NCBI GenBank assembly: GCA_023053685.1
Contig: JALIGW010000010.1
Span: forward strand, 6,516,096-6,580,095
Direction: 5' to 3'
Length of the DNA: 64,000 nucleotides
DNA from: Diadophis punctatus similis
Lineage: Eukaryota; Chordata; Lepidosauria; Squamata; Dipsadidae
Below, piece by piece: positions 30,153 to 64,000 of this stretch. The notes below the pieces were generated by a model, which saw only the letters and a program-made list of their open reading frames with translations, had not been told where the DNA came from and did no database searches. Both the position numbers and the translations under genes were made by a program. Each line of letters starts with the position of its first letter. The first letter of the stretch is position 1.

Positions 30153-30328
30153 GATCTTCAGGATGACATTGGGAGGCAGCAAGCTGTTGTCAGAACTTTG
30201 AACATAGTTGGAGATGAGATTATTGAACAATCATCAACAACAGATGCCAGCATTTTAAGAGAAAAATTGGACAGCTTGAATTTCCGATGGAAGGAAGTCT
30301 GCAGGCAGTTTGCAGAGAAAAAAAAGAG
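30153..30328 (+). CDS. DMD: Dystrophin exon 45 (spectrin-repeat coding exon)
   Basis: Dystrophin links cortical actin to the sarcolemmal dystroglycan complex; its rod is built of spectrin repeats. This exon is preceded by a pyrimidine-rich tract and AG (30151-30152) and followed by GT (30329-30330). It is exactly 176 bases, the length of human exon 45, starts in phase 0 and leaves two bases of a split codon (AG|G). Its translation (LQDDIGRQQAVVRTLN, TDASILREKL, FRWKEVC, ending KKKR) agrees closely with the human exon, differing mostly by conservative changes. The frame has no stop. The exon encodes part of one rod-domain repeat with heptad-like spacing. It is flanked by noncoding sequence on both sides and not fused to exons 44 or 46, so it is a genuine exon rather than a processed copy. 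Confidence 0.96.
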
Positions 30329-44767: not shown

Positions 44768-44991
44768 GTCTAATAGCTGTAATGGTTCTTGAAGTAATAA
44801 TACAAAGACATAGGGCTTTTGTACTACCATGTACATTACATGAGAAATCTAAGGATATATCATTTATACCAGTGGTTCCCAAAGTGGGCGGGTACCGCCC
44901 CCCAGGGGGCAGTGGGAACCCTTAGGGGGGCGGTGAGAGGGAAGGGTAGTGACAGGGGGTGGTGAGAGGGTAGGTGGTTTGCCATGCTTTT

Positions 44992-45130
44992 GCACTTGAA
45001 GCTCCCTTGCGTTCCTCGCTCTTGTGTGCAGGGCAGCCCATTCTGAAAGAAAACACGAGATGTTTTCTTTCAGAATGGGCTGCCCTGCACACAAGAGCGA
45101 GGAACACAACGGAGTTACAAGTGCTAGGTA
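44992..45130. repeat. Palindrome 1 inside the hAT-type element
   Basis: Arms of about 65 bases around 45060 (GCAGGGCAGCCCATTCTG mirrored by CAGAATGGGCTGCCCTGC, extending out to CACTTG/CAAGTG). Confidence 0.85.
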
Positions 45131-45216
45131 TGATGCCCGCCTAGCCCCCACCCAGGCTCCGCTCCGCCCCGCATGATTGGTCACCCCAAACTGCATCCAA
45201 CCACGCGACGGGTGTC

Positions 45217-45362
45217 CTACCTAGCACTTGAAGCTCTCTCGCGTTCCTTGCTCTTGTATGCAGGGCAGCCCATTCTGAAAGAAAACGTGAGATGTTTTCT
45301 TTCAGAATGGGCTGCCCTGCATCCAAGAGCGTGGAATGTGGCGGAGTTACAAGTGCTAGGTA
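45217..45362. repeat. Palindrome 2 inside the hAT-type element
   Basis: Second copy of the same palindrome with outer ends TACCTAGCACTTG / CAAGTGCTAGGTA. It differs from palindrome 1 at scattered positions, so the two are not a fresh duplication. Confidence 0.85.
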
Positions 45363-45489
45363 CTGAGCACGGCACAGCAACGAGGGAAGCCGACCGCTCC
45401 TGAAGCTGCTCGGGCGAGCACTCGTAGACCTGTGGGAAGGCCCCGTTGCGGAACCTGCGCATGTGTGGACTTTCCCGCCCGGCATCCCC

Positions 45490-45502
45490 ATCACCTAGCA
45501 AC
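45490..45502 (-). promoter_or_regulatory. X-box-like (RFX) motif before the captured exon
   Basis: ATCACCTAGCAAC, reverse complement GTTGCTAGGTGAT: one strong RFX half-site (GTTGCTA) and one weaker one. RFX factors drive ciliary genes, and RSPH14 is a ciliary gene, so this fits a captured native promoter. It lies 34 bases upstream of the ATG. Confidence 0.55.
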
Positions 45503-45536
45503 CTGGCGCGTGCAATTCTGCGGGCTCCCCTCCGGC

Positions 45537-45734
45537 ATGGCGCACCCGGGGATCTCAGCCCAGCTGCCCCCCGACATCGACCCCACCAAGGTGTCTGTGG
45601 CCTTCGGCCGCCGAGGCCTCCCCAAGCTCAATGAAGAGCTGCAGCACCCCGAGCTGCTGACGTGGCAGCCGGCCTTGATGGCACTCTGTGACCTGGTGCA
45701 CAACCCGGAGAACGCTTACCAAGCCATCGGCCTG
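45537..45734 (+). pseudogene. RSPH14: RSPH14-like first coding exon captured in a transposon
   Basis: From the ATG at 45537, 66 codons run to a GTGAGC donor (45735-45740). The translation begins MAHPGIS and continues [18 protein letters not shown] and [13 protein letters not shown], which matches the N-terminus of radial spoke head 14 (RTDR1), an armadillo-repeat protein of motile cilia, residue for residue over most of its length. The context is GC-rich, unlike the surrounding intron. An expected arginine is tryptophan here (TGG in LLTWQ), consistent with decay of a CpG codon, and the following lysine is also changed. No second exon follows; after the donor comes a GA-rich satellite. It lies between the ends of a hAT-type element, so it is read as a captured fragment, not the resident gene. 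Whether it is transcribed is unknown. Confidence 0.85.
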
Positions 45735-45764
45735 GTGAGCGGCGGCGGCCTGGCCACAGCTGGC

Positions 45765-46275
45765 GGGAGGGAAGGGAAGGGAGGGAAGAAGGAAAGAAAA
45801 AGGAAAGAAAGAAAGAGAGAGGGAGGGAGGAAGGAAGACAGAAAGAAAGGGACAGAATGATGATAGGAAGGAAGCAAGCAAGATAGATAGAAAAAGAAAG
45901 AAGGGAGGAAAGAAAGAAAGAAAAAGAAAGAAAGAAAGAAAGATGGTAGGAAGGAAGGAAGACAGACAGACAGAAAAAGAAAGGAGGGAGGGAAGGGAAG
46001 GGAGGGAAGAAGGAAAAGAAAGAAAGAAAGAGGGAGGGAGGAAGACAGAAAGAAAGATGGTAGGAAGGAAGGAAGACAGACAGAAAAAGAAAGGAGGAAG
46101 GGGAGGGAAGGGAGGGAAGATGGAAAGAAAAAGGAAAGAAAGAAAGAAAGAGCGAGGGAGGGAGGGAGGAAGGAAGGAAGACAGAAAGAAAGAAAGATGG
46201 TAGGAAGGAAGGAAGATAGACAGAAAAAGAAGGGAGGGAGAGAGGGAGGGAAGAAGGAAAGAAAAAGGAAAGAAA

Positions 46276-46308
<33 letters not shown>

Positions 46309-46745
46309 GGTAGGAAGGAAGGAAGATGGTAGGAAGGAAGGAAGGAAGACAGACAGAAAAAGGAGGGAAGGAAGAAAGAAAGAAAAAGGAAAGAAAAAGG
46401 AAGGAAGGAAGAGGGAGGCAGGGAGGGAGGAAGACAAAAAGAAAGAAAGATGGTAGGTAGGTAGGAAGGAAGACAGACAGAAAAAGGAGGGAGGGAAGGG
46501 AGGGAAGAAGGAAAGAAAAAAGAAAGAAAGAGGGAGGGAGGGAGGGAGGGAGGGAGGGAGAAAGAAAGAAAGAAAGATGGTAGGAAGGAAGGAAGACAGA
46601 CAGAAAGAAAGAAAAGATGGTAGGAAGGAAGGAGGACAGACAGAAAGAAAGAAAAGAAAGAAAGAAAAAGAAAGATGGTAGGAAGAAAGATAGAAAGAAA
46701 AAGAAAGAAAGAAGGGGGAAGGTAGAGAAGAAAGAAAGAATGAAA
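45765..46745. repeat. GA-rich satellite, about 1 kb
   Basis: Purine-only strand of GAAA, GGAA, GGGA and GACA units, organised in recurring blocks of 100-150 bases, each ending GATGGTAGGAAGGAAG(GAAG)ACAGACAGA. The long antisense serine/phenylalanine-rich open frames are artefacts of it. Confidence 0.95.
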
Positions 46746-46963
46746 GAAATACTTATGACCACAATTGAGCCTAACATTTTGGTTGCTAAGCAAGAGCGTT
46801 GTTAAGTGAGTTTCACCACACTTTACAAGTTGGCCACGCCCACCCGGTCACCTGACCACTAAGCCATGCCCACCTGAGGGGGTGGGGTGGGGGGCGGTGA
46901 GGATGAGTTTGTAGCACCAAGGGGGCGGTGGACTGAAAAAGTTTGGGAACCACTGATTTATAT

Positions 46964-57614: not shown

Positions 57615-60600
57615 TTAGCAAGGTTTGCTAGGGTATTTGGAGTGGAATCTTCTCCATAAGGTGGGGGATTTCACATGTTTTTTAGCGACCCACTCGTTCT
57701 GTGATGAAGGCAAATGTTTCCAGGCTACCAGATACTGGGTCTTCCCTCTGTGGATTCTGGAGTCAAGAATTTCCTTGATTTCAAAATGTTGTTCCCCCTC
57801 TATCATGATTGGGGCAGGTGGTGTATTTGCCACCGGTCTAAGTGACGAGGTTACCTCTCTCTTGAGTAGACTAATGTGAAATACTGGGTGGACTTGTCTA
57901 AGTGTTTTTGGAAGAATCAATTCAACCACTACTGGGTTAATGATCCTGCTAATAGTGAAAGGCCCAATAAAGTTAGGTCCTAATTTTTTTGATGGTTGTA
58001 ACAATCTCAAGAATTTTGTAGATAAATATACTCTATCCCCAACCTGGAAAGGTTTAGCCTCTACTCTTTTCTTGTCAGCTTGAATTTTGAAAGCCTCTCT
58101 AGCCTCCTGTAAAGCCAACCTGACTACTGGCCATGTGTTTTGCAAATTTTCTATCCACTCCTTAAGTGAGGGGATAGTGGGTTTTTCTATGGGTAGTTCC
58201 GGTATTGGGCTGAAGTCTTGCCCTGTGGCTACTCTAAAAGGTGTAAAACCTGTACTTGAATGTACAGAGTTATTAAATGCAACCTCTGCAAATGGTAAAA
58301 GTTCAGTTCAATTGTCCTGTTGAAAATTAATAAAACATCTTAGATACTGTTCAAGAACGCTGTTCAAATTCTCGCAATTACCATTTGTCTGGGGGTGATG
58401 GGAGGAGCTTAATCCTTGGGCGGTGCCAAGTAGGCCCAAAAACGCCTTCCAAAAATTGGAGGTAAATTGGACTCCCCTATCCGAGATTATCCTTTTAGGA
58501 GCTCCATGAAGACGATAAATGTGTATTAGAAACAGTCTAGCCAAGCCTTTGGCTGTTGGAATCTTTTGGCAAGGAATAAAATGTGCTTGTTTTGAAAACA
58601 AGTCTGTCACAACCCAAATGACCGTGTTTCCCCCACTTTCCGGTAGTTCTACAATAAAATCCATAGCAATTTCTTCCCATGGGGCTGACGGCTCAGCTAC
58701 TTTTTGTAGAAGTCCTGGAGTTTTCTCCTGACGTCTTTTTGCTGCAGCACAAATGGGGCAACTTGCTACATAGCTTTCTATGTCCTTTTTCAACGAAGGC
58801 CACCAAAATTGTCTCTTTATTAAGTGTAAAGTTTTTACAAAGCCAAAATGTCCAGCCAACCTAGAGTCGTGGCACCTTCCCATTAAACGTAATCTTTGGC
58901 TAGCAGGTACATAAAGTTTGTCACCTACCCACGCTAATTCATCTTTCATCACGCAACTGGATCTGTGGTTCAAAATCCATTCATCGTTGACTAATGCTTG
59001 TTTAAATGCGTGAGTGATGTCTGCGTCCCTCAATGCGTCTTTTCCTCCTTCGGACCTGGTGATTACTTTGGCTGCCAATTGATTTGTTTGTACTATAGGT
59101 TTAAATACCTCTGATTTCACACAATTATATTGTGGCTTTCTGGACAGTGCATCTGCCAGAAAGTTTTTCCCCCCAGGGATAAATTTAAGAGTAAACTCGA
59201 ACCGTTTGAAGTATTGCGCCCAACGAACCTGTTTAGGAGATAGTTTCCTTGGTGTCTTTAAGGCTTCTAAGTTTTTGTGGTCAGTCCAGACTTCAAAAGG
59301 GATCTTACTCCCTTCTAAGAATTGTCTCCAAGTTAAAAGTGCCCATCGCACCGCATAAGCTTCTTTTTCCCAGATCGCCCACCTTTGTTCAGTTTCACTT
59401 AGTTTCCTGGATGTATATGCACATGGCTGTAGCTGTCCTTGCTCATTGCTCTGGAGTATTGCCTATTGCCACATCGCTAGAATCAGCTTGTATTATGAAG
59501 GGTTTTTCTGGGTCTGGGTGCTTCAAAATTGGTTCTGTTGAGAACAGCCGTTTTAGTTTTTCAAACGCTGCCTGGCATTCCATTGTCCAATTCACGGGAT
59601 GTCTCGGTTTAGGATCTCCCTCCCCCTTTGTTCTTAGCAGTTTTGTGATGGGCAGGGCAATTTGAGCAAATGCGGGGATAAATTGGCGATAGAAATTTGC
59701 AAACCCCAGGAAGCTTTGCAGCTGTTTGCGTGTGCGAGGCGTTTCCCAATCGAGTACTGCCTGTACTTTTTGAGGATCCATTTCTATGCCCTGGTGTGAA
59801 ATACGGTACCCCAAGTAATAAATTTTTTCTCGGTGGAATTCACATTTTGAGAGTTTGGCATAAAGTTTTGCCTCGCGGAGTTTGCTCAGCACTGCCCTCA
59901 CCAATTTAACATGTTCAGCCTCGGTCTCTGAGTATAATAGAATATCATCTAAATAAACGAGAACCCCTTTGTATAAGTGTTCATGTAACACATCGTTAAT
60001 TAATTGCATAAACACTGCAGGTGCCCCTTGTAGCCCAAAAGGGAGCACTTTGAATTGGTAGCATCCCAGGGGGGTGTTGAATGCCGTTTTCCATTCATCC
60101 CCCTCCTTAATTCTGATTCGGTAGTATGCCTCCCTGATGTCTAGTTTGGAGAAAATTTTCCCTTTTTTGAGGTGGGTCAGCATGTCTTTCATCAGGGGGA
60201 GGGGATACATGTTTTCAACACTTATCGAGTTTAGGTTTCTGAAGTCGACACATAAGCGTTTTGTGCCATCTTTCTTCTCTCTAAATAACACCGGGGCTGC
60301 TATCTTTGGTCTGGCTGGTTCAATGAACCCCCTTGCTAGGTTTTTCTCAATGAAAGCACTCAGCTCCTCTAACTCCCCCGGTGACATTCTATACATTTTT
60401 GGTTTAGGTAGTTTAGCCCCGGGTAAGATTTCTATTGCGCAGTCGGATGCGCGATGCGGGGGAAGTTCATCCGACGCTGCCTCGCTAAAGACTTCTGCCA
60501 GGTCTTTGTATTCCTTGGGTATGCCGTCTGTTTCCACGCTATGACCAGACATGGCTGTTTCCCTGCGTTCAGCCCCTTCAGTTTCTATCTGTGGGTCCTC

Positions 60601-62925: not shown

Positions 62926-64000
62926 TTAGCAAGGTTTGCTAGGGTATTTGGAGTGGAATCTTCTCCATAAGGTGGGGGCTTTCACATGTTTTTTAGCGAC
63001 CCACTCGTTCTGTGACGAAGGCAAATGTTTCCAGGCTACCAGATACTGGGTCTTCCCTCTGTGGATTCTGGAGTCAAGAATTTCCTTGATTTCAAAATGT
63101 TGTTCCCCCTCTATCATGATTGGGGCAGGTGGTGTATTTGCCACCGGTCTAAGTGACGAGGTTACCTCTCTCTTGAGTAGACTAATGTGAAATACTGGGT
63201 GGACTTGTCTAAGTGTTTTTGGAAGAATCAATTCAACCACTACTGGGTTAATGATCCTGCTAATAGTGAAAGGCCCAATAAAGTTAGGTCCTAATTTTTT
63301 TGATGGTTGTAACAATCTCAAGAATTTTGTAGATAAATATACTCTATCCCCAACCTGGAAAGGTTTAGCCTCTACTCTTTTCTTGTCAGCTTGAATTTTG
63401 AAAGCCTCTCTAGCCTCCTGTAAAGCCAACCTGACTACTGGCCATGTGTTTTGCAAATTTTCTATCCACTCCTTAAGTGAGGGGATAGTGGGTTTTTCTA
63501 TGGGTAGTTCCGGTATTGGGCTGAAGTCTTGCCCTGTGGCTACTCTAAAAGGTGTAAAACCTGTACTTGAATGTACAGAGTTATTAAATGCAACCTCTGC
63601 AAATGGTAAAAGTTCAGTCCAATTGTCCTGTTGAAAATTAATAAAACATCTTAGATACTGTTCAAGAACGCTGTTCAAATTCTCGCAATTACCATTTGTC
63701 TGGGGGTGATGGGAGGAGCTTAATCCTTGGGCGGTGCCAAGTAGGCCCAAAAACGCCTTCCAAAAATTGGAGGTAAATTGGACTCCCCTATCCGAGATTA
63801 TCCTTTTAGGAGCTCCATGAAGACGATAAATGTGTATTAGAAACAGTCTAGCCAAGCCTTTGGCTGTTGGAATCTTTTGGCAAGGAATAAAATGTGCTTG
63901 TTTTGAAAACAAGTCTGTCACAACCCAAATGACCGTGTTTCCCCCACTTTCCGGTAGTTCTACAATAAAATCCATAGCAATTTCTTCCCATGGGGCTGAC
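62926..64000 (-). CDS. Gypsy integrase to chromodomain, intact so far (partial at window edge)
   Basis: Open through the window edge. Integrase core (MDFIVELPESGG, LFSKQAHFIPC, IISDRGVQF, the glutamate in CENLN), C-terminal strands (FQVGDRVYLST, LGPNFIGPF) and chromodomain (HFEIKEILDSR, QYLVAWKHLP), stop at 62926. It matches 57615-58990 almost base for base but has TGG where that copy has the TGA stop, and alanine instead of serine near the C-terminus. The rest of pol lies outside the window, so full integrity cannot be judged. Confidence 0.9.
   Translation of the reverse strand, partial: SAPWEEIAMDFIVELPESGGNTVIWVVTDLFSKQAHFIPCQKIPTAKGLARLFLIHIYRLHGAPKRIISDRGVQFTSNFWKAFLGLLGTAQGLSSSHHPQTNGNCENLNSVLEQYLRCFINFQQDNWTELLPFAEVAFNNSVHSSTGFTPFRVATGQDFSPIPELPIEKPTIPSLKEWIENLQNTWPVVRLALQEAREAFKIQADKKRVEAKPFQVGDRVYLSTKFLRLLQPSKKLGPNFIGPFTISRIINPVVVELILPKTLRQVHPVFHISLLKREVTSSLRPVANTPPAPIMIEGEQHFEIKEILDSRIHRGKTQYLVAWKHLPSSQNEWVAKKHVKAPTLWRRFHSKYPSKPC

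Follow-up and report, generated by a model that had tools for sequence, protein, structure and literature searches.

A hAT-type transposon family carrying the predicted promoter and first exon of RSPH14 in the genome of Diadophis punctatus similis

Intron 45 of the dystrophin gene (DMD) of Diadophis punctatus similis harbors a non-autonomous hAT-type transposon that carries the start of another host gene, RSPH14, with a predicted promoter, an ATG, exon 1, and a splice donor. A stretch of this exon is found about 990 times in the genome, and the element was likely multiplied by hAT transposase acting in trans, a reading to which we assign a probability of about 0.93.

Within the window, by which we mean the whole 64,000-nucleotide stretch of DNA that was analyzed, the element at 44870-46955 is bounded by exact 14-bp inverted ends, CAGTGGTTCCCAAA at 44870-44883 on the plus strand and at 46942-46955 on the minus strand, with 0 mismatches each. 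Six further CAGTGGTTCCCAAA-like sites in the window each have 2 or 3 mismatches. The target site duplication (TSD) of this copy, ATTTATAC/ATTTATAT, matches at 7 of 8 positions. A first-pass annotation of this DNA had described hAT-like inverted ends, an 8-bp TSD with one mismatch, a GC-rich 5' flank, a splice donor, and insertion in sense orientation in a dystrophin intron, all of which we recovered. The element lies on the sense strand of DMD intron 45, 14.5 kb 3' of exon 45. Exon 46 lies 27.8 kb beyond the element, outside the window, and starts ~9.5 kb past the window's end. The proposal that host DNA had been captured inside the transposon stands for 45363-45771, to which the RSPH14 DNA within the insert is limited, but not for the rest, the palindromic block (44992-45362) and the microsatellite (45772-46749). 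Searches of the window for tRNA and Rfam families gave no match. Elsewhere in the window, the same peptide, KEWIENLQNTWPVVRLALQEAR, is encoded twice on the minus strand, at 58098-58187 and 63409-63498 (5.3 kb apart); both places were weak chance matches of the dystrophin query, and the pair is probably a repeat family.

Table 1. Features of the element and its surroundings in the window
Feature	Position	Strand	Basis
DMD exon 45	30153..30328	+	Peptide match; the start is the start of the match, not a mapped acceptor
TSD, left copy, ATTTATAC	44862..44869		Sequence reading and TSD comparison
Left terminal inverted repeat (TIR), CAGTGGTTCCCAAA	44870..44883	+	Repeat and end-pattern search
Left arm of hAT-type element, common to the family	44870..44991	+	Comparison of copies
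Palindromic block: two long palindromes with 148-bp arms, 82% complementary	44992..45362	+	Family feature; without counterpart in the resident region (L059)
Captured RSPH14 DNA: coding exon 1 flanked by 174 bp 5' of the ATG and 37 bp from intron 1	45363..45771	+	Family consensus versus resident L059; window limits read from the sequence
NRF1-like site, decayed, TGCGCATGTGT	45456..45466	+	Motif scan of copies
RFX-like half-site, CCTAGCAAC, 43 bp 5' of the ATG	45494..45502	+	Motif scan; exact in 31/40 copies
RSPH14 coding exon 1 with 66 open codons, followed by donor GTGAGC at 45735	45537..45734	+	Protein matches; one G fewer than the family
GGAA/GAAA microsatellite, in the family directly next to the captured piece of intron 1	45772..46749	+	Repeat search and resident alignment; without counterpart at the resident segment
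Right arm, terminates in inverted repeat 46942-46955	46750..46955	+	End pattern and copy comparison
TSD, right copy, ATTTATAT	46956..46963		Sequence reading and TSD comparison

The translation of 45537-45734 matches RSPH14 residues 1-65 in a structure database search (PDB entries 9fqr and 8j07, with E values of 6e-20 and 5e-16, respectively), and the window exon shares 88% identity with Laticauda RSPH14 across 66 residues. Named snake RSPH14 proteins of Laticauda, Naja, Erythrolamprus, Candoia, and Crotalus match the window exon at 83 to 91%, and the family exon, once corrected for CpG decay, departs from Crotalus adamanteus RSPH14 at a single residue, residue 45. These matches uphold the earlier assignment of the 66-codon ATG exon to the RSPH14 N terminus. 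The exon had also been said to end in phase 0, which is true of the window copy (198 bp) but not of the family, whose 199-bp exon terminates in phase 1, with CTGG preceding the donor GTGAGC; the window copy is shorter by one G. A 169-residue Crotalus adamanteus protein named "radial spoke head 14 like" (P0122) tracks RSPH14 for ~100 residues and then continues in other sequence, and it may be a truncated gene model.

A search of the genome with the Laticauda RSPH14 protein gave 119 scored matches, the best of 1,223 candidates, of which 116 consisted of exon 1 alone and lay off the resident contig. The resident RSPH14 gene is located on contig C362, where the matches cover exon 1 and portions of two exons downstream of it, and is the only place with later exons among the 119 scored matches. 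When the family consensus is compared with the resident exon 1 region (L059, 3.2 kb), homology begins 174 bp 5' of the ATG, extends through the first 40 bp of intron 1, and is lost at both breakpoints. No match to the element's ends, arms, or palindromes was found in these 3.2 kb, so that the comparison with the resident locus advised in the first-pass annotation came out in favor of capture.

Copies and target site duplications

When the complete element was used as a query against the same genome, the best 40 of 5,778 candidates were scored, each place being represented by its main match (the first 40 of 100 match rows listed), and the exon was present in all 40 places. For the analysis of TSDs, eight copies from the RSPH14 protein search (L060 to L067) were added, for a set of 48, which are the best-scoring copies and not a random sample. 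The two TSD copies agree at 8/8 positions in 33 of the 48 and at 7/8 positions in 3 more, and 35 different TSDs occur among these 36 copies; in a control of shifted TSD pairs (n = 8,149), 8/8 agreement was reached in 0.025%. The remaining 12 copies are without a good TSD, either because no end pair is present in the stretch read (7 copies) or because only 1 to 4 of 8 positions match (5 copies); L025, one of the latter, looks like a copy with its boundary shifted by one base. Because 36 of the 48 copies have TSDs matching at 7 or 8 positions, 35 of them different, the unit moved after capture. The sister copies L038 and L040, on tree branches of 0.0049 and 0.0098, carry different TSDs, and transposition therefore continued until relatively recently.

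Elements of the hAT superfamily have short TIRs that begin with CAG, and TA at the TSD center is characteristic of Buster-type hATs. The RSPH14-bearing family has 14-bp ends that begin with CAG and 8-bp TSDs with TA at the center, where position 4 is T in 35 of 36 copies and position 5 is A in all 36.

Pattern counts, which leave out decayed copies, were made across the genome for several parts of the element. With up to 2 mismatches allowed, a 23-bp stretch of the exon is matched 990 times, a number that includes the resident RSPH14 exon itself, and 0 times in the reversed control. A 34-bp promoter-proximal stretch spanning the RFX-like half-site and the leader gave 887 matches (control, 0), and in the C1 entries compared, among the matches listed, the two stretches begin 123 bp apart, as they do in the window. 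The right end has 2,192 matches (reversed control, 0), or about twice the frequency of the exon. In the copies examined, the exon moves as one unit with both arms and the palindromes. Multiple copies that share both the ends and the exon, which the first-pass annotation had named as evidence of mobilization after capture, are thus present in this genome. The right-end pattern had 0 matches in viral contigs.

Two right-end places lacking the exon, L068 and L069, were considered as the parent element, and neither shows parent structure, as both are rearranged or truncated. L068 (C1:134816800-134817500) is a ~600-bp derivative with the right arm present at each end, in inverted orientation to one another, a microsatellite in between, and no clean TSD, and L069 is truncated within the microsatellite. 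The number of palindromic blocks also varies among copies: in 5 of 33 bounded copies (L018, L020, L024, L025, and L032), the left end and the ATG are 891 to 969 bp apart instead of 648 to 714 bp, as if the longer block had gained one extra unit.

CpG decay and predicted activity of the copies

Transitions at CpG sites account for 781 of 4,371 positions (17.9%) versus 180 of 11,815 (1.5%) at other sites, a ratio of 11.7, and this decay is visible in every one of the 40 copies (10 to 27% per site versus 1 to 5% at other sites). We compared 49 shared CpG sites, picked by their state in the copies, a choice that does not favor the resident gene. The resident retains 46 of them and has lost 0 by transition, whereas 42 element copies retain a mean of 63% (range, 41 to 82%; window copy, 61%); in the flank alone, the resident retains 25 of 27 CpGs versus 62% in the copies. 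Because the CpGs of the copies decay by transition while the resident has lost none in this way, we infer that most copies became methylated in the germline, with the captured CpG island methylated at new sites and protected at home. Most copies are likely silenced. Since CpGs persist at the resident gene but not in the copies, the family makes it testable whether a CpG island owes its protection from methylation to its sequence or to its genomic location.

An intronic copy on the sense strand is predicted to act as a promoter and first exon and to splice into the host gene, and sense copies in introns could by this prediction serve as ready-made alternative first exons for neighboring genes. 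We advance only tentatively, at somewhat less than even odds, the idea of a mobile exon trap of ~990 copies, in which sense intronic copies would supply RFX-driven first exons and the captured CpG island, protected at home, would be methylated almost everywhere else. The alternative that every captured promoter and donor has been silenced or has decayed, leaving host transcripts unaffected, falls just short of an even chance. Along with the CpG decay in all 40 copies, it is consistent with the state of TGCGCATGTGT, which we take to be an NRF1-like site and whose core is intact in 10 of 40 copies (33 of 40 when as many as 2 mismatches are allowed). It is also consistent with the protein searches: a fusion protein with family residues was found in 0 of 158 proteins (from 120 of 144 matches in one search plus all 40 of another), and none of 8 long fusion-protein candidates that were scored proved to be one. 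However, CCTAGCAAC, presumably an RFX-like half-site, is exact in 31 of 40 copies, the donor GT is present in 39 of 40, and the ATG and an open frame with no stop are retained in 27 of 40. Moreover, a few active copies among ~990 would be missed by these searches, and the argument from methylation concerns the germline only. Among the 13 copies outside the open class, 5, including the window copy, are without the last exon base, which alters the splice phase and leaves the 66 codons unaffected; 2 of these 5 also have a stop.

The motifs TWQ and QPALM were likewise absent from all 158 database proteins (0/158). Two proteins considered as fusions, P0001 and P0121, were rejected; they carry the host residues and are read as resident-type exon 1 plus intron. 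For the copy in DMD, joining the window exon to exon 46 in silico predicts residues 1-66, an I, and then a stop, for a 67-residue peptide, and the 199-bp family exon joined in the same way is predicted to add 22 more codons before a stop. The earlier claim that the frame would not be preserved into DMD exon 46 agrees with this predicted splice, which stops at once. The copies are also an annotation hazard, as the same first exon, often open, can be predicted at hundreds of sites.

Capture and stages of the family

The family would go back to a single capture, in which the RSPH14 DNA was probably copied into a hAT element during repair. It is possible, though we consider it unlikely, that the fragment was instead acquired by another process, for example, in connection with the palindromic block or by filler repair, and that a hAT unit enclosed it later. 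The palindromes that adjoin the captured 5' end and the microsatellite that adjoins its 3' end would suit such a sequence of events, but the left arm, palindromes, exon, and right arm move jointly in the copies examined, among which no palindrome-plus-exon unit lying outside the ends was noticed, and this argues for capture by the hAT element. On the reverse complement of L059, at ~1970, a different hAT-like end, CAGTGTTTCCCAACC, is followed by a palindrome; it lies in RSPH14 intron 1, ~230 bp beyond the captured 3' limit, and might bear on the capture route.

A stretch of ~28 bp in the 5' flank of the element is missing from the resident allele L059. Since two older copies, L070 and L071, have this stretch, with extra inserted bases, and the protein frame of P0001 reads through it, the resident probably lost the ~28 bp after capture. 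The transposon would in that case preserve an older version of the host's predicted RSPH14 promoter.

The resident state around codon 45 (up to 1 mismatch) is found at five places in the genome, the resident and four others, two of which (L070 and L071) were read. Both are host-like at exon sites 59, 95, 126, 133, and 138, and their 3' microsatellite junction is the same as that of the family. The amplified subfamily has the derived states at these five sites, including the change R45P, and codon 45, which goes back to CCG in all 40 copies, reads CCG in 24 of 40 copies, CCA in 9, CTG in 5, CCC in 1, and -CG in 1 (one copy read in part). Because the two older copies keep R45, the change R45P marks the amplified subfamily and not the capture, and P45 as a universal feature of the family is ruled out. 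The changes at exon sites 105 and 193 are read as changes on the resident side. The distribution of these states fits one capture and then one derived master, carrying R45P, that would have been amplified. A second candidate founder mutation, W43, taken from the majority consensus, was rejected: codon 43 is TGG in 22, CGG in 11, CAG in 5, CTG in 1, and a gap in 1 (n = 40), mostly CpG decay of the host CGG.

That the master was retained for its coding exon, with the RSPH14 fragment under selection as part of the transposon, is very improbable. Four of the five fixed exon changes by which the amplified subfamily is set apart from older copies or the resident (sites 20, 59, 95, and 138) do read as synonymous and one (site 133, R45P) as nonsynonymous, numbers too small for a test. 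Among the 40 copies, however, non-CpG transition rates relative to the consensus are 0.0153 at nonsynonymous and 0.0091 at synonymous sites, the corresponding transversion rates are 0.0025 and 0.0039, third codon positions are the least variable, and the tree sisters L042 and L046 have the same stop codon. The copies show no sign of coding selection. Non-CpG differences from the consensus amount to 148/4,599 in the 5' flank, 124/6,507 in the exon, 22/1,303 in the intron piece, and 17/960 in the palindrome tail. The excess in the 5' flank is due in part to a T/G split at -46 (17 versus 23 copies), and the lower divergence of the exon is not read as exon selection because the intron piece and palindrome tail are equally low.

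The notion that the copies are ordinary RSPH14 duplicates or pseudogenes, arising by segmental duplication or as retrocopies, that hAT elements chanced to enter would fit a multiplied exon alone and the 12 of 48 copies without a good TSD, but its probability is negligible, and it is refuted for the 36 copies with TSDs, as their different TSDs flank the whole unit, both breakpoints are shared by older copies where readable, the segment includes intron 1 sequence and upstream DNA (contrary to a retrocopy), and 116 of the 119 scored protein matches are to exon 1 only, away from the resident contig.

Relation to known gene-capturing transposons

Multicopy capture of host genes by cut-and-paste transposons is reported to be very rare in animals. 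In a survey of 100 animal genomes, 370 Pack-TIRs are counted, 208 of them in hAT elements, with 4 multicopy families (PMC8277862). The RSPH14 family resembles these animal Pack-TIRs and Pack-hATs in having hAT TIRs with a host gene fragment between them, multiple copies, distinct TSDs after capture, and a source gene elsewhere without the element. In the same survey, hAT-N8_XT of the western clawed frog has three copies of a 291-bp piece of the CAPSL 5' untranslated region (UTR) (PMC8277862). Unlike this 5' UTR piece, the RSPH14 family has ~990 exon matches and combines a predicted promoter with an ATG, a coding exon, and a donor; it would exceed the three-copy example hundreds-fold while carrying the predicted start and splice parts of a transcript. 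Plant Pack-MULEs are also TIR transposons with gene fragments, many of them multicopy, but they belong to the Mutator superfamily, and the survey gives 0 Pack-MULEs in animal reference genomes (PMC8277862).

Captured promoters at such a scale are already known in vertebrates, via another transposon class. The bat Helitron HelibatN3 contains the NUBPL promoter, 6 codons, and a splice donor; it acts as an exon trap in cultured cells and gives rise to chimeric transcripts in bats, and Myotis lucifugus has 4,690 Helitron copies of captured promoters from 15 genes (PMC4778049). The layout of the RSPH14 element is like that of HelibatN3, with a captured promoter (predicted here), first codons, and a donor, spread as a potential exon trap (PMC4778049). 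It differs in having 66 codons instead of 6 and in its TIRs and TSDs, both of which a Helitron lacks. HelibatN3 also transposes by another mechanism, and chimeric transcripts are shown for HelibatN3 but are a prediction for the RSPH14 element. Helitrons have 5'-TC and CTRR-3' ends, insert between A and T, and have no inverted repeats (PMC4778049); the family described here has inverted ends (CAGTGG...CCACTG) plus 8-bp TSDs. The view that such capture is rare in vertebrates, as the first-pass annotation put it, therefore holds for multicopy Pack-TIRs, with 4 in 100 genomes (PMC8277862), but must be qualified by the close functional precedent of the bat Helitrons (PMC4778049). No RSPH14-bearing transposon was recognized in the open-license PMC literature among the matches listed.

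As to the source of the transposase that likely multiplied the element in trans, the best 150 of 984 candidate matches to hAT dimerization domains were scored. An autonomous element with CAGTGGTTCCCAAA ends was not identified among these 150 matches, which cover the domains and their reading frames, and by eye, 0 of the 12 hAT-domain matches on C1 below 134.8 Mb lie within 10 kb of a perfect right end among the matches listed. In a viper genome study, an excess of low-divergence hAT elements is described (PMC5059746). Some of the frames with hAT dimerization domains in the present genome are open for >600 amino acids, and those of 631 to 669 residues, for example, at C57:5948792, C1:181490298, and C397:9535470, are possible intact hAT transposases.
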